From positions 62,001 to 126,000 of the forward strand of contig NZ_KB893174.1 in assembly GCF_000374025.1 (NCBI RefSeq): DNA of 64,000 bases, given 5' to 3'. The position numbers were made by a program, and so were the translations under genes. Positions 56,184 to 61,706 of this stretch are shown here, piece after piece (position 1 is the stretch's first letter; each line of letters begins with the position of its first letter). The DNA is from Spirosoma panaciterrae DSM 21099. Its GTDB lineage: Bacteria; Bacteroidota; Bacteroidia; Cytophagales; Spirosomataceae. The notes beneath the pieces were generated by a model. That model had not been told where the DNA came from. It ran no database searches and worked only from the letters and a program-made list of their open reading frames with translations.

Positions 56184-56933
56184 ATGCTGAACACACTGAA
56201 AATTACCCGCTCGGACTTAGCCAACGTTAACTGGAAATCGGTTAGTAGTTTTTACCTGCTGGCTTGTTCGCTCTCGTATGGATTACATTTCTTACCCAAC
56301 CTGAATAAAGGGATTCTGCCCGTTCATAATGTATTTACGTATGGCATGGGTCCATTGCTGGCGGCTGTAGTTTGCCGGTTTCTGTTTCCACGTCAGCCAC
56401 GCACACTTTCGGTATTCGGCTCCGCACCGCTAAAAGCTATTGTATTGGTAATGACCCCAATTTTGCTTTCTGCTATAATCGGCGTTCCGAATAAAGCAGG
56501 TCAGAACGTTCATCTTTTTGGATTCCTGCTTGGGGTTTCGGGATTGCTCTATGGGTTTGGTGAAGAGATGGGCTGGCGCGGCTACCTGCAGGAGGCTCTT
56601 CGGCCGTTGCCCACGTTTTACCGAGTTACGTTGATTGGCGTACTCCATGCGGGCTGGCATTTGACCTTCCTCTCCGATTTGTCCGGCATAGTCGGTGGGC
56701 AGACAACTGGATGGATGGTAGTTGGGGTGCTGATTTTGATGGCCTGGGGGTTAGGGGCACTAGTCGATACGACAAAGTCGGTTTTGGTGGTTGCCTCTGC
56801 CCACGAACTGATGAACATTGCCGTACATCCGGTTGCCCTCGCAATCACGTTACTGGTCTGGATTGGGCTAGTACGAAACTGGCGGAAACAACGCCCGCAT
56901 TTTAAGAATTTTCTTTTTACCTTTGTGCCATGA
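56184..56933 (+). CDS. CPBP family intramembrane metalloprotease
   Basis: Integral membrane protein of 249 residues with about seven hydrophobic helices and the CPBP motifs EEMGWRGYLQ (E127, E128, R132) and LHAGWH (H155, H159). All putative metal ligands are present, so it is likely an active protease like Rce1 or an Abi-type immunity protein. The start is the ATG at 56184, fixed by the palindrome ending three bases upstream. It overlaps the leader peptide for hisG by four bases at its stop. Confidence 0.88.
   Translation: MLNTLKITRSDLANVNWKSVSSFYLLACSLSYGLHFLPNLNKGILPVHNVFTYGMGPLLAAVVCRFLFPRQPRTLSVFGSAPLKAIVLVMTPILLSAIIGVPNKAGQNVHLFGFLLGVSGLLYGFGEEMGWRGYLQEALRPLPTFYRVTLIGVLHAGWHLTFLSDLSGIVGGQTTGWMVVGVLILMAWGLGALVDTTKSVLVVASAHELMNIAVHPVALAITLLVWIGLVRNWRKQRPHFKNFLFTFVP
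56918..56925 (+). promoter_or_regulatory. -7 element of the his leader
   Basis: TACCTTTG, an exact TAnnTTTG match at the 3' end of the CPBP gene, 4 bases before the ATG of the leader peptide at 56930. No clear TTG at -33. Confidence 0.5.
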
Positions 56934-56992
56934 TTTCAAAACGGGACACTCATTCGCCTTTCCGACATCGTCGTCACCATTCGGGCTGCTAA
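56930..56992 (+). CDS. Candidate his-operon leader peptide
   Basis: 20-residue ORF MISKRDTHSPFRHRRHHSGC with His at 8, 13, 16 and 17. It overlaps the CPBP stop (ATGA) and lies 171 bases before hisG. Downstream, 57083-57092 can pair either with 57012-57021 (10 bp, one G-U) or, partly, with 57062-57068 (7 bp), so the two stems exclude each other. This is the layout of an attenuator that senses charged His-tRNA, but no clear T-run terminator is seen, so the mode of control is open. The peptide is too short for ordinary gene callers. Confidence 0.6.
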   Translation: MISKRDTHSPFRHRRHHSGC

Positions 56993-57127
56993 TCTGGCCT
57001 GCCACTACGTTGTTGTATCCCCGTTTTCCTGTAGGTTTGCCCCCTGATTTTCTGGCCGCATGCTGTATGAAAAATAAGTTGCGGGATACAGCTTCAAAAC
57101 TAACGTATTACGGGAGGTGTGGGGCAT

Positions 57128-57156
57128 CTCATACATCCTATCTCATACATCCTACA
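57128..57156. repeat. Dispersed short repeat, CTATCTCATACATCCTACAT
   Basis: Tandem-like ATCTCATACATCC units before hisG. The same string ATCCTATCTCATACATCCTAC occurs in pieces at 52459-52488, after the OmpA gene. Function unknown. Confidence 0.5.
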
Positions 57157-57163
57157 TCAAGTA

Positions 57164-58024
57164 ATGTCTTCTGTATTACGAATTGCCTTACAAAAATCGG
57201 GTCGGCTGAGCGAAGATTCGTATCAGCTTTTTAAAGAGTGTGGTATCCGTTTCGACTATGGGACCGGTAAACTCAAATCAGTGTCATCCAACTTCCCGGC
57301 AGAGTTTCTTTTTTTACGCGACGACGATATTCCTGGTTACGTCGAAGATGGCGTTGCTGATCTGGGCATCGTGGGCGAAAACGTAGCGGTCGAAATGGGC
57401 CGCCAGGTACAAACGATTCATAAACTTGGGTTCTCTAAATGCCGGTTGTCTATTGCTGTGCCACGGGGTACCGACTGGACGGGTATTCAGTGCCTGGAAG
57501 GAAAGAATATCGCTACCTCGTACCCGAATCTGTTGGGAAACTACCTGACCGAACAGGGGGTTCAGGCCGAAATTCACGAGATCAGCGGGTCGGTAGAGAT
57601 TGCTCCCAGCATCGGGCTGGCGGAGGCTGTCTGTGACATTGTTAGTTCGGGAAGTACATTGCTCAGTAATGGCCTGAAAGAAGTGGAAACCATCTTTCGT
57701 TCAGAAGCCATCCTGATTGCCCCAAACGAGCTGAACGCAGAGAAACAGGAACTAATCGATAAACTGCTCTTCCGCATCAAAGCGGTACAGGTGGCCAAGA
57801 ATAATAAATACATCGTCCTGAATGCTCCGAACCACTCACTCGATCAGATTACGGCCTTGCTCCCCGGTATGAAAAGCCCCACGGTTACGCCATTGGCTAC
57901 CGAAGGCTGGAGTTCCGTACATTCGGTGCTGAATGAAAATGAGTTCTGGGAAAATATCGAAGCCATCCGGGCCGCTGGTGCCGAAGGCATCCTCGTGATT
58001 CCGATTGAGAAAATGATTTATTAA
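57164..58024 (+). CDS. hisG: ATP phosphoribosyltransferase, long form
   Basis: First enzyme of histidine synthesis: joins ATP and PRPP. 286 residues from the ATG at 57164, long-form type with a C-terminal regulatory domain (about 215-286), so it is allosterically inhibited by histidine and needs no HisZ. Motifs: GIVGENVAVEMG, PRGTDWTG region, and SVEIAPSIGLAEAVCDIVSSGSTL in pieces around the PRPP loop. The longer open frame from 57119 was rejected. It is preceded by the leader peptide at 56930 and followed by hisD after 109 bp containing a palindromic repeat. Confidence 0.95.
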   Translation: MSSVLRIALQKSGRLSEDSYQLFKECGIRFDYGTGKLKSVSSNFPAEFLFLRDDDIPGYVEDGVADLGIVGENVAVEMGRQVQTIHKLGFSKCRLSIAVPRGTDWTGIQCLEGKNIATSYPNLLGNYLTEQGVQAEIHEISGSVEIAPSIGLAEAVCDIVSSGSTLLSNGLKEVETIFRSEAILIAPNELNAEKQELIDKLLFRIKAVQVAKNNKYIVLNAPNHSLDQITALLPGMKSPTVTPLATEGWSSVHSVLNENEFWENIEAIRAAGAEGILVIPIEKMIY

Positions 58025-58039
58025 CATTAAGTAGACAGG

Positions 58040-58131
58040 AGTGATGAGCGAGGAGTGAGAATAGCTGACGCAGGAAACTTATTAATGCGTCAGCTATTCC
58101 CGCTCCTCACTCCTCGCTCCTCGCTCCTAGA
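58040..58131. repeat. Palindromic repeat family D
   Basis: A 13-bp perfect stem (58060-58072 with 58086-58098, AATAGCTGACGCA) flanked by imperfectly paired GGAGTGAGGAGCGAG-type tracts. It fills the hisG-hisD gap. A related copy is at 62318-62418. Confidence 0.8.
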
Positions 58132-58133
58132 AA

Positions 58134-59423
58134 ATGAATATCATTCCTTTTCCCGCCCGAACGGAATGGCCAGCCTTGTTGGCCCGTCCGGTGCAGTCGA
58201 CGCAACAGATCGAAGCGGCTGTAGCTCCGATTTTGGCTCAGGTGAAAGCCGAGGGTGATGTGGCCTTGCTGGCCCTGGCTAAAAAATTCGACAAGCTTGA
58301 CCTGACAACCGCGCAACTGCGTGTCGATAACACCGAATTGGAGGCTGCCGAAGCGCAGTTAAGTAGTGAACTGAAAATGGCTATACAACAAGCCTATCAG
58401 AACATTCGCCTGTTTCATGAAAAGCAGAAGCAGCCTGTCGAAAAGATTGAGACCATGCCGGGGGTAACCTGCTGGCGGAAAAGCGTCGGAATCGAAAAAG
58501 TGGGGCTATATATTCCGGGAGGAACGGCACCGTTGTTTAGTACGGTGCTTATGCTGGGCATACCGGCTCAACTGGCTGGTTGTCAGGAGATCGTTCTATG
58601 CACCCCGAGCAACCATCCCGCCATCTATTTTGCCGCCAAACTAGTGGGCGTTACACAGGTGTTTCGGATTGGTGGGGCGCAGGCTATAGCGGCTATGGCT
58701 TACGGAACCGAGTCAGTGCCGCAGGTGTACAAAATTTTTGGGCCGGGAAATCAGTACGTTACGGCTGCAAAGATGCTGGTCGCCAAAGAGGGTATGGCTA
58801 TCGATATGCCCGCCGGGCCAAGTGAAGTGGCGGTCTACGCCGATGATTCGGCTGTTCCATCGTTTGTAGCGGCTGACCTGCTCTCACAGGCCGAACATGG
58901 TGCCGATAGTCAGGTGCTGCTGGTGTCGACCAGTAAAAAACTGCTGACCAGTGTAAACCTGACTCTGTCGACCCAGCTTGGCCGATTGCCCCGGCAGGAT
59001 ATGGCCGCTAAAGCACTGGAAAATAGTAAAATGATATTGCTTGAAAGTCAGGAAGATGCCGTTGATCTGTTGAATCAATATGCTGCCGAACACCTCATTC
59101 TAAGTATAGAGAATGCGGAAGAAGTGGCCGATCAAATTATCAATGCGGGTTCGATTTTCCTTGGTAACTACACCCCCGAATCGGCGGGTGATTATGCCTC
59201 GGGAACCAATCATACGCTGCCAACCAATGGCTTTGCACGCGCCTACAGTGGGGTATCGCTGGATAGCTTCGTGAAGAAGATAACCGTACAGCATATTACC
59301 CCCGCCGGGTTGCAGCAAGTCGGTCCTGTAGTGGAAGCGATGGCCGAAGCCGAATCGCTGGAAGCTCACAAGCGTGCGGTGAGCCTGCGATTGGCTAGCC
59401 TGGAAGAAACGAATCTCGTTTGA
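58134..59423 (+). CDS. hisD: Histidinol dehydrogenase
   Basis: Zinc enzyme that performs the last two oxidations of histidine synthesis. 429 residues, normal length. Zinc ligands Q252 and H255 in SQAEHGADSQ, NAD-binding GPGNQYVTAAK, and the catalytic region YTPESAGDYASGTNHTLPT in pieces. All expected residues are kept. It follows hisG and precedes the VapB-like gene after 30 bases. Confidence 0.96.
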   Translation: MNIIPFPARTEWPALLARPVQSTQQIEAAVAPILAQVKAEGDVALLALAKKFDKLDLTTAQLRVDNTELEAAEAQLSSELKMAIQQAYQNIRLFHEKQKQPVEKIETMPGVTCWRKSVGIEKVGLYIPGGTAPLFSTVLMLGIPAQLAGCQEIVLCTPSNHPAIYFAAKLVGVTQVFRIGGAQAIAAMAYGTESVPQVYKIFGPGNQYVTAAKMLVAKEGMAIDMPAGPSEVAVYADDSAVPSFVAADLLSQAEHGADSQVLLVSTSKKLLTSVNLTLSTQLGRLPRQDMAAKALENSKMILLESQEDAVDLLNQYAAEHLILSIENAEEVADQIINAGSIFLGNYTPESAGDYASGTNHTLPTNGFARAYSGVSLDSFVKKITVQHITPAGLQQVGPVVEAMAEAESLEAHKRAVSLRLASLEETNLV

Positions 59424-59453: not shown

Positions 59454-59705
59454 ATGAGTCAGTTAGTCATTGAGATCGATAATCCAGAAGATGAAGCACT
59501 ATTGATCCGTTTATTGCCTAAGCTAAATGGGCGAATTGTCTCTAAAGAAGCTAGTACAGCTATAAATGATCGCAAGGAGAAGTTGTCGGCTATTTTTGAT
59601 CGACTAAGGGACAGCGGAGTTGCTGAGAAATATGGTGACCCATCAGAATGGCAACGAGAAGTGCGACAGGATCGACCTTTAGCTGGCCGCGAAGATGATT
59701 ATTGA
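59454..59705 (+). CDS. VapB-like antitoxin
   Basis: 83 residues, polar, with a likely ribbon-type N-terminus (MSQLVIEIDNPEDEALLIRLL) and a variable C-terminus that would wrap the toxin. It overlaps the VapC gene by 11 bases, which is the typical antitoxin-toxin order. The sequence itself is not a clear match to a known antitoxin, so the call rests mostly on context. Confidence 0.65.
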   Translation: MSQLVIEIDNPEDEALLIRLLPKLNGRIVSKEASTAINDRKEKLSAIFDRLRDSGVAEKYGDPSEWQREVRQDRPLAGREDDY

Positions 59706-60075
59706 CAGTAACGTCATCATTTATTCGATTCGGCCTGAGTATAGACAATTGCAGGCTTATCTGCTCAAGCACAGTAATGTGTTGCAGGTATCAGCAATCA
59801 CCAGACTTGAGGTAGTTGGCTTTTACAAATTAGCTGAGGAAGAAAAAGAACAGTTTGAGCAATTTTTTACTACCATTCTCATTCTTCCCATAACGGATGA
59901 AGTCATTACCGAAGCCATTCGGCTCCGCCAACAACGCAAGCGGTCGCTGGCGGATTCCCTTATTGCCGCAACAGGAATTCTGTATAAGCTACCCGTTCTG
60001 ACAAATAATGTAGCCGATTTCTCGGACATTGAAGGTCTACAGATTATTCCGCTGTCCGACATTTTAAACACATGA
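59695..60075 (+). CDS. PIN-domain toxin, VapC family
   Basis: Putative endoribonuclease, 126 residues. The PIN acidic residues D4, E39, D87 and D108 are present (MIIDSN, TRLEV, LADSLIAATG, VADFSD), so it is likely active. It overlaps the antitoxin gene by 11 bases at its start, and its stop overlaps the next gene as ATGA. This places a toxin-antitoxin module inside the his operon. Usual targets are tRNAs or rRNA. Confidence 0.88.
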   Translation: MIIDSNVIIYSIRPEYRQLQAYLLKHSNVLQVSAITRLEVVGFYKLAEEEKEQFEQFFTTILILPITDEVITEAIRLRQQRKRSLADSLIAATGILYKLPVLTNNVADFSDIEGLQIIPLSDILNT

Positions 60076-60572
60076 AACATCTCGCTGATCTGCTGCTTCT
60101 GGGCGACCCACGCTTATACGAAACCTGCGAACCTGTACTGGAATCTGAACTGCCACTGGTAGCTGGCTGGGTAGCCGATCTGCATAATGTGATGGAGGAA
60201 ATCCGGGCGAAATATCAGTTTGGGCGGGGTATTGCCGCTCCCCAACTGGGAATTATGAAGCGCCTGATCTACCTGAATATAGACCGTCCCCAGGTAGTCA
60301 TCAATCCCGAACTGATCGCCCTCAGCGATGATATGAACGAGCTTTGGGACGATTGTATGAGCTTTCCAAACTTACTGGTGCGTGTTCGTCGGCATCGAAA
60401 GCTGACGATGATCTACCGGGATGAAAACTGGCAAACGCATACATGGGAAGTAAACGACTGGGCCTTGTCGGAACTGATACAACATGAATACGACCATCTG
60501 AACGGGGTTTTATGTACCATGCGGGCGATCGACGAGCAGGCATTTCGCTGGCGACCAACCCCCAATCCTTAA
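60072..60572 (+). CDS. Peptide deformylase-like protein
   Basis: 166 residues. Motif I GRGIAAPQ (51-58) and motif III QHEYDHLNG (H138, E139, H142) are intact; motif II reads DDCMS around C95 instead of the usual EGCLS. The metal ligands C95, H138 and H142 are kept, so it can bind metal, but the changed motif II and the lack of a methionyl-tRNA formyltransferase gene next to it suggest it is not the main housekeeping enzyme. Its ATG overlaps the VapC stop (ATGA), so both are translationally coupled. Confidence 0.82.
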   Translation: MKHLADLLLLGDPRLYETCEPVLESELPLVAGWVADLHNVMEEIRAKYQFGRGIAAPQLGIMKRLIYLNIDRPQVVINPELIALSDDMNELWDDCMSFPNLLVRVRRHRKLTMIYRDENWQTHTWEVNDWALSELIQHEYDHLNGVLCTMRAIDEQAFRWRPTPNP

Positions 60573-60587
60573 TTCGAATAACCACTT

Positions 60588-61706
60588 ATGTTTAATCTTA
60601 GTACGATTCTACGCCCACATATTCTTTCGTTGACACCGTATTCATCGGCTCGTGATGAGTATACGGGTACGATCGGCGTGTTTCTGGACGCCAACGAGAA
60701 CCCAATTGGCTCAACGACTGATGCGGGTACTTACAACCGCTATCCTGATCCGCATCAGTGGGCCATCAAACAACGGCTGGCACCGATCAAAGGGGTTCGG
60801 GTGGGGCAGATTTTTCTAGGCAACGGTTCCGACGAACCCATCGATCTGCTGGTACGGGCCACCTGCGTACCGGGCCAGGATAACCTACTGATTATGCCGC
60901 CCACATACGGGATGTATGAGGTATCAGCAGCTCTCAACGATGTGGCTTTGCTCAAAGTACCACTCACGCCCGACTTTCAGGTGGATACGGAGGCTGTGCT
61001 AGGGGCTATCACCAAAAACACGAAGCTGATCTGGCTTTGCTCCCCCAACAATCCGTCGGGCAATCTATTACAGCCCGAAGCCATCCGCCGGATTCTCGAA
61101 GCGGCCGAGCATTCACTGGTGATTGTTGATGAAGCGTATATTGATTTTGCCGATACACCTTCCTGGACAACCCAACTAGACAGGTATCCGAATCTGGTAG
61201 TGCTGCAAACCTTCTCCAAAGCCTGGGGACTGGCGGCTTTGCGGCTGGGTATGTGCTTTGCGTCGGAAGAATTGATTCAAGTCCTGAACAAGATCAAACC
61301 TCCCTACAATATCTCAGCACCCACCCAGGCACTTGCGCTGGAAGCGCTGACGCAGGGCGCGAAAAAGGAGGGAATGGTGGCCCAAATTTTGGCCGACAGG
61401 CAGATTTTGGCAGAAAAACTACGTTCTTTGCCCAATGTACAAGTGGTACACCCGTCTGATGCCAACTTCCTGCTCGTTCAGTTCGACGATGCAAAACAGG
61501 TATTCGAACAACTGATCGAACAACAGGTTATTGTCCGTGACCGATCGAAGGTGAAGCTCTGCGAAGGGTGTCTGCGCATTTCGGTGGGTACGCACGAAGA
61601 AAACGAACGGCTGCTTGACGTGCTTGGGCAGATGAGTCAAAATCCGGAAGAGCCGATAGAAACCAGCCAGAAAGCTGCCAAACCCGAACTGGTGTCGAAA
61701 ACCTGA
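60588..61706 (+). CDS. hisC: Histidinol-phosphate aminotransferase
   Basis: PLP-dependent aminotransferase of histidine synthesis, 372 residues. Motifs: DANENPIGS, CSPNNPSGN, VDEAYIDF, and the PLP lysine K211 in QTFSKAWGLAALRLG. The C-terminal arm ends in a polar stretch (about 20 residues longer than usual). It follows the deformylase-like gene after 15 bases, so the operon runs hisG-hisD-vapBC-def-hisC; the remaining his genes are elsewhere. Confidence 0.95.
   Translation: MFNLSTILRPHILSLTPYSSARDEYTGTIGVFLDANENPIGSTTDAGTYNRYPDPHQWAIKQRLAPIKGVRVGQIFLGNGSDEPIDLLVRATCVPGQDNLLIMPPTYGMYEVSAALNDVALLKVPLTPDFQVDTEAVLGAITKNTKLIWLCSPNNPSGNLLQPEAIRRILEAAEHSLVIVDEAYIDFADTPSWTTQLDRYPNLVVLQTFSKAWGLAALRLGMCFASEELIQVLNKIKPPYNISAPTQALALEALTQGAKKEGMVAQILADRQILAEKLRSLPNVQVVHPSDANFLLVQFDDAKQVFEQLIEQQVIVRDRSKVKLCEGCLRISVGTHEENERLLDVLGQMSQNPEEPIETSQKAAKPELVSKT

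Follow-up and report, generated by a model that had tools for sequence, protein, structure and literature searches.

The hisG gene in the 64,000 nt stretch of DNA analysed here (the window) is preceded by a His-rich leader open reading frame (ORF) that is real and conserved, very probably regulatory, and predicted to be translated from an mRNA whose first codon is its AUG. The explanation we prefer, at a probability of about 0.5, is that this histidine-sensing leaderless ORF gates hisG without an intrinsic terminator, possibly by way of Rho, and that a second promoter supplies basal expression. The features on which this explanation is built are as follows.

56918..56925, + strand: P1, the sigma-A type -7 box TACCTTTG of the leader transcript, with its +1 predicted at 56930
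56930..56992, + strand: His-rich leader ORF MISKRDTHSPFRHRRHHSGC, 20 codons, predicted to be leaderless
56963..56980, + strand: core codons 12-17 of the leader, RHRRHH (CGA CAT CGT CGT CAC CAT)
56982..57001, + strand: stop-codon hairpin CGGGCU-GCUAAUCU-GGCCUG in the fold of the window, with the leader stop in its loop
57019..57043, + strand: P2, promoter-like element CCCCGTTTTCCTGTAGGTTTGCCCC, with -7 box TAGGTTTG at 57032-57039 and a predicted +1 at 57044
57117..57134, + strand: hairpin GUGUGGG-GCAU-CUCAUAC about 30 nt before hisG, the second helix in the consensus fold of 30 sequences
57164..58024, + strand: hisG, ATP phosphoribosyltransferase (short form), from the ORF list and relatives; we take this ORF to be hisG from knowledge of the family and from an earlier note on this DNA

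The earlier note had described a 20-residue His-rich ORF ending 171 bases before hisG, and both observations hold. The ORF carries His at positions 8, 13, 16 and 17, and 171 bases lie between its stop codon and the hisG ATG at 57164. At the His background of 1.7% found in long ORFs in 260 kb of genome, the probability of at least four His in 19 residues is 2.5e-4, uncorrected for search. We accept the ORF as real because it is conserved, as a comparison of the regions upstream of hisG in relatives, which the note had proposed, makes clear. The nearest named relatives by hisG belong to Spirosoma (the genome of the window measures 8.1 Mb). hisG was present in 35 of 36 genomes of this genus, all 35 upstream regions were inspected, and 80 further named loci from the genus and related genera were added. 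A full leader is present in 30 of the 35 hisG-bearing genomes; of the others, three have a truncated leader, one has none and one is interrupted by a contig end (L104).

The pattern of sequence change indicates that the leader ORF is under coding constraint. Specifically, the synonymous share of single-base codon differences is 0.652 in the leader frame versus 0.179 and 0.167 in the other two frames, and this in-frame value (null mean 0.296) was reached by none of 300 column permutations. Among the 29 distinct full leader DNAs, His13 is found in all 29, His16 in 25 and His17 in 24, while Arg12 is found in all 29 and Arg14 and Arg15 in 28 each, giving a leader core of FRHRRHH. Furthermore, codon 12 is CGA and codon 13 is CAT in 30 of 30 sequences, and codon 14 is CGT in 27 of 30. 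In the long frames of 260 kb of genome, CGA accounts for 18% of Arg codons, and the freezing of CGA CAT despite this suggests a constraint at the nucleotide level as well. The truncated leaders (L190, L314 and L316) lie at the same place and retain P1, P2 and FRHRR, with which they end; their stop precedes the last two His, leaving one His codon. This clade is either losing its leader or is one in which FRHRR matters by itself. One genus member, L315 (the same locus as L026), has no leader.

The ORF upstream of the leader (56184-56933) overlaps the leader start by 4 bases. Across 110 loci (L009-L118), this upstream gene turned up in just 5, from about four genomes, and the leader thus travels with hisG. 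On the other side of hisG, inspection by eye revealed a long imperfect palindrome (gagtgatgagcgaggagtgag ... ctcctcactcctcgctcct) at 58025-58133, between hisG and the next ORF. Also by eye, a hisD-like ORF (58134-59423) and a hisC-like ORF (60588-61706) flank a segment at 59454-60572 that holds two small ORFs reminiscent of a toxin-antitoxin pair, together with an ORF that looks like a deformylase.

A promoter box positioned for leaderless transcription accompanies the leader. The TACCTTTG element pointed out in the note is present at 56918-56925, with the ATG at 56930 being the fifth base past its G. In the 31 uncut sequences of a set of 32 (the last, L104, is cut by the contig end), the gap between box and leader ATG is 4 nt in 22 cases and 5 nt in 9, under a search pattern that demanded 4-5 nt. 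The box is one base off in L108 and L113, lies 4 nt before the ATG in the truncated L314 and L316, and was absent when sought upstream of hisG in L315. According to PMC9723704, the sigma-A box TAnnTTTG of Flavobacterium psychrophilum occupies positions -12 to -5. Applied to the spacing observed here, this position places the +1 at the first base of the AUG or at the base just before it, and the leader mRNA is thus predicted, from box and spacing, to be leaderless. The setting is a phylum in which such mRNAs form a small minority, going by figures of 5.5% of mapped mRNAs given for F. psychrophilum (PMC9723704) and of about 3.7% for 5′ UTRs under 10 nt given for Bacteroides thetaiotaomicron (PMC7366714).

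As the note had stated, no U-run terminator is visible between leader and hisG: the segment 56850-57200 yields none (0.4 expected). Across the genus, U-run terminators were scored in 2 of 31 sequences when 1.4 were expected from dinucleotide shuffles, which is chance level, and an intrinsic terminator is rejected for the genus on this count. The organism nevertheless appears to use such terminators, since the same genome carries one behind a trp leader. This locus (L275, contig C8, upstream of 129201) has a WWW leader before a trpE-like gene, located behind a tRNA gene, and a U-run terminator of 11 pairs; the trpE-like call is a match to TIGR00564 at 412.7 bits, under the cut-off of 517.7. In L315, a possible long-loop U-run hairpin can be seen by eye just before hisG.

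His leaders are common before hisG in Bacteroidia, and elsewhere in the class they usually come with a terminator. hisG was found in 174 of 396 genomes of the class, and 67 loci (L119-L185) were examined, chosen with a bias towards close similarity to the query; a leader was scored when at least 3 His fell within 7 residues. By this rule all 51 examined loci from other orders have a His-rich leader before hisG (47 ATG, 4 GTG), whereas shuffles of these loci yield 3.9, and a stricter rule gives 51 versus 0.5. Within the same 67 loci, 15 of the 16 from the order of the window have a leader. Of the 51 loci from other orders, 46 carry a T-run hairpin in the interval from leader to hisG (0.7 expected). 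Two of the five misses (L129 and L132) show one by eye, and what was counted in L152 is the hairpin at the stop codon. The leader end was also compared with the 5′ arm of the terminator: in 24 of 49 loci, no more than 5% of 50 shuffled versions matched the arm as well as the real leader end, as expected of an antiterminator. Left out of this test were L120, L122, L127, L135, L152 and L156, where the match is the stop hairpin or doubtful. Judged from these sequence features, the His leaders of other orders look like classical attenuation, which agrees with the 5′ element of hisG and the hints of leader peptides that PMC9723704 reports for Flavobacteriaceae.

The order of the window is more varied. 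hisG occurs in 246 of its 291 genomes, and we read a leader in 25 (23 ATG, 2 GTG) of a sample of 76 such loci (L186-L261, which include two from the genus). A His-rich ORF at -305 in L193 was judged spurious and dropped from this count, and the reading of L254 was in a wrong frame. The remaining loci have no leader by these rules and often show a long frame ending shortly before hisG; leaders were sought in Larkinella, Rudanella and Fibrella loci and none was found. Many leaders from two other families, which we guess to be Cyclobacteriaceae and Hymenobacteraceae, end in HHxHHSS. T-run hairpins were scored in 5 of 26 same-order leaders outside the genus (0.6 expected), two of these being the stop-codon hairpin and one (L261) being of the classical kind. 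The genus leader is related to the His leaders in other orders but has diverged from them and is without a defining attenuator part; we do not count it among the classical attenuators. One order holds both leaders kept without a recognizable terminator and lineages without a leader, a natural experiment on how attenuation changes once the terminator is gone.

Several further observations were made on these loci. In a sister genus (L120, L196 and L198) the leader has a GTG start and reads FRHHHHH where Spirosoma has FRHRRHH; its His14 and His15 take the place of Arg, each codon differing by a single base. A CATATCGCCC-like or ACACCC motif was seen by eye near the leader in, for example, L122, L135, L244-L252, L255, L256, L121 and L123-L125, roughly 10-20 nt past the stop-codon hairpin and often with alternative CCC:GGG and GGG:CCC pairings. 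In Dyadobacter (e.g. L049, L055 and L075), hisG follows an ORF that by eye resembles the end of hisS, with no leader by the rules used.

The leader stop codon lies within a conserved hairpin. Many relatives form the stop-codon hairpin as GGCU-GCUA-AGCC, and a consensus fold of 30 genus sequences starting from codon 17 contains two helices, this hairpin and the one some 30 nt ahead of hisG (z -9.2, a value that none of 60 column shuffles reached). Folds of genus subsets gave z -3.6 for 14 sequences and z -5.6 for 5 sequences (0 of 60 each), while the window with its three nearest relatives was not above chance (z -1.2, 7 of 60 shuffles). Folding the whole leader of 30 sequences, with no shuffle control, keeps the stop-codon region and uses partly other helices: a small hairpin (CGAC/GUCG) and a pairing of GGGC with GCCC are added and the hairpin before hisG is dropped. 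The genus stop hairpin exhibits little covariation (123 of 160 cells paired versus a shuffle mean of 118.7), its arm match is reached by 268 of 2000 permutations, and it is not evident in L090 and L091. Outside the genus, 31 of 38 leaders have a hairpin of at least 6 pairs whose loop contains the stop codon, a count without shuffle control. A consensus fold of 28 non-genus leaders, three of them from another order, gave z -15.9 and beat 60 of 60 column shuffles; folds by other families gave z -6.0 (10 sequences), -2.7 (5 sequences) and -2.0 with 3 of 60 shuffles (8 sequences).

A second promoter-like element separates the leader from hisG. A TAnnTTT(G/A) box occurs there in 32 of 32 genus sequences, in a conserved setting that is mostly TTTTC-n3-TA(C/T)TTTTGCCCC, and L314-L316 have such a box as well. 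The leader-less Larkinella and Rudanella have a similar box 26-30 nt before hisG (e.g. GCGTTTTTTTCGTACCTTTGCGC), and from this resemblance we read P2 as the old hisG promoter, now located downstream of the leader unit. The pattern TAYYTTTGCNCC has 37 sites in the genome versus 22 for the reversed pattern; of 30 sites inspected, 15 fall outside long ORFs, and 10 of those 15 precede a same-strand ORF. In addition, TAnnTTTG precedes 44 of 176 ORFs that have an upstream gap versus 19 on the reverse strand, counts that rest on mechanical and crude ORF calls. These distributions suggest, with moderate confidence, that boxes of the P2 type are promoters in this genome. A role for TTTTC in a general promoter motif was rejected, as TTTTCNNNTANNTTTGCNC occurs 3 times in the genome, once here.

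The simplest reading of a leader that has no intrinsic terminator and stands in front of a promoter bypassing it is a gate on read-through from P1, perhaps involving Rho. Judging by the box spacing, a short transcript would start at P1 with the AUG of the His-rich leader as its first codon, and ribosomes would translate the leader while the RNA is being made. When charged His-tRNA is low, ribosomes would stall at codons 13-17, just upstream of the stop-codon hairpin; when histidine is ample they would run on to the stop codon and be released, allowing the hairpin to form. The difference between a stalled and a released ribosome would then set the amount of P1 RNA that is extended into hisG. 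No recognizable intrinsic terminator would make this decision. The likeliest substitute may be termination by Rho within the C-rich RNA that separates the leader from hisG, and P2, being downstream of the leader, would provide a basal, leader-independent hisG mRNA.

The base composition that bears on Rho is modest. From the leader stop to P2 the excess of C over G has a genus mean of 0.14, which 5% of 121 intergenic stretches reach, and a value of 0.111 in the window (9% of background). The longest C-rich bubble of the window, at 78 nt, is ordinary (61% reach it), and its being unremarkable leaves Rho as a guess. Further points speak against the preferred explanation. The Arg codons are as frozen as the His codons, which simple sensing of histidine leaves unexplained. 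Transcripts from P2 would bypass the leader. Leaders with a single His exist in L190, L314 and L316, and L315 has no leader at all. The low covariation of the genus stop hairpin, the chance-level fold of the window with its three nearest relatives, the partly different helices of the whole-leader fold and the leader-less Larkinella, Rudanella and Fibrella loci count against it too.

A bolder version, that we are dealing with a new architecture in which a leaderless His leader gates an upstream promoter without an intrinsic terminator, is bypassed by a second promoter and derives from the terminator attenuator of the other orders, is a tentative proposal that we consider doubtful. If it were true, the frozen CGA-CAT-CGT would be part of the sensing rather than plain counting of His, and the mode could be a slow-codon effect, a nascent-peptide effect or a joint reading of Arg and His.

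Control of hisG translation, in which the leader ribosome refolds the hisG 5′ UTR and transcription is not terminated, is unlikely, although it would fit both the conserved hairpin about 30 nt before hisG and the failure to find a terminator. In several relatives this hairpin takes the form UGUAUGA-N6-UCAUACA, but it leaves the start codon uncovered and overlaps a dispersed repeat, from which it may be derived. Moreover, pairing of the stop-codon strand with the UTR between P2 and hisG is not in excess over permuted species pairs (736 of 2000), and an mRNA from P2 would have the identical UTR without the leader. The repeat sequence catctcatacatcctatctcatacatcctaca (57127-57158) was observed at 8 further places in the genome, and on contigs C22 and C67 it forms inverted pairs. 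A portion of the hisG 5′ UTR either comes from this dispersed repeat or feeds it.

It is also quite improbable that P1 and its ORF are an independent gene for a small His/Arg-rich, perhaps metal-binding, peptide, with P2 alone driving hisG. Such a gene would account for the conservation of Arg as well as His, for a truncated clade that keeps FRHRR while losing the last two His, and for a P2 box that is present in all 32 sequences plus three more and resembles the promoter of leader-less sister genera. However, the ORF goes with hisG and not with the upstream gene, and the His leaders of other orders sit at the same place before hisG, mostly with a terminator.

Still less probable is a long-range, terminator-like pairing of leader codons 4-6 (AACGGG) with CCCGTT before the T-run of P2, which ribosomes at the leader start would open or close. 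Both AAAACGGG (56938-56945) and CCCGTTTT (57020-57027) are present in the window, long matches occur in L113, L189 and L115, and matched species pairs score 420.5 versus a mean of 398.4 for mismatched pairs (reached by 32 of 2000 permutations, which ignore relatedness). However, this was one of five pairings tested, roughly half of the 30 sequences show it weakly or not at all, and it would span a loop of more than 70 nt. The other four pairings were chance-like; among them, the RHRRHH codons and leader codons 3-8 show no excess of pairing with the RNA beyond P2 (1207 and 1481 of 2000 permuted species pairs, respectively).

The earlier note had proposed the logic of an attenuator, with three segments forming two competing stems. 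The complementarity is there (57012-57021 with 57083-57092, 10 of 10 pairs; 57062-57068 with 57086-57092, 7 of 7 pairs), but its conservation is not. One segment, GGGATACAGC, is limited to 3 of the 32 distinct sequences from the genus even when up to 2 mismatches are allowed, and in the two relatives that have it the first stem keeps 9 of 10 pairs while the second keeps 5 of 7 and is broken. In addition, the folding stability of the window's whole leader does not exceed that of shuffled versions (z 0.06; 106 of 200 shuffles equal or surpass it), and the covarying stems that the note suggested looking for in relatives did not emerge, pairing within the genus being not above shuffles. The three-segment arrangement is thus probably due to chance. 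A classical ribosome-mediated attenuator with antiterminator and intrinsic terminator within 57012-57092, despite these complementary segments and a type that prevails among relatives in other orders, is the least probable reading of all, given the missing U-run hairpin, the confined segment, the broken second stem and the shuffle-like fold.

The leader belongs to a known kind of element and differs from each described example. The enterobacterial his operon leader (Rfam His_leader, accession RF00514) likewise has His codons in an ORF before hisG, there as a run of seven His; the leader of the window differs in having no terminator, an HRRHH core and a predicted leaderless start. Rfam gave no match in 56850-57200 even at E <= 10, no amino-acid leader or T-box at gathering score in the whole window, and just a tRNA in 15 related loci. 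Earlier attenuation predictions were reportedly made by the group of Lyubetsky. A full-text literature search, most subscription journals being outside its reach, returned no report of a his leader in Cytophagales. The note knew of no description of this leader in Spirosoma-type genomes. A structured 5′ element before hisG is reported for other genera of Flavobacteriaceae, and 'strong clues' of leader-peptide attenuation upstream of amino-acid operons for F. psychrophilum (PMC9723704). Within the reach of this search, only this group's version of the His leader thus looks undescribed. Bacteroid-trp RNA (RF01692), a candidate cis-regulatory RNA of Bacteroidetes whose trp role is in its name as listed in PMC2864571, differs in that the window has no Rfam match at gathering score. 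The trpL of Sinorhizobium meliloti, leaderless with its ATG at the RNA 5′ end (PMC7298713), shares this feature with the predicted start of the window's leader, and differs in being a trp attenuator of another phylum, whereas no terminator was found behind the leader described here. The trp leader of the same genome resembles the his leader in placing regulatory codons (WWW) in an ORF before its biosynthetic gene, and differs in its U-run terminator and in its location behind a tRNA gene. The closest comparison is with the His leaders of other Bacteroidia, which have the same short His-rich ORF directly before hisG, often near a box of the TAnnTTTG type. They differ in that most of those examined have a U-run terminator (46 of 51 loci, versus 2 of 31 for the genus to which the window belongs); the genus has a promoter-like box between its leader and hisG.
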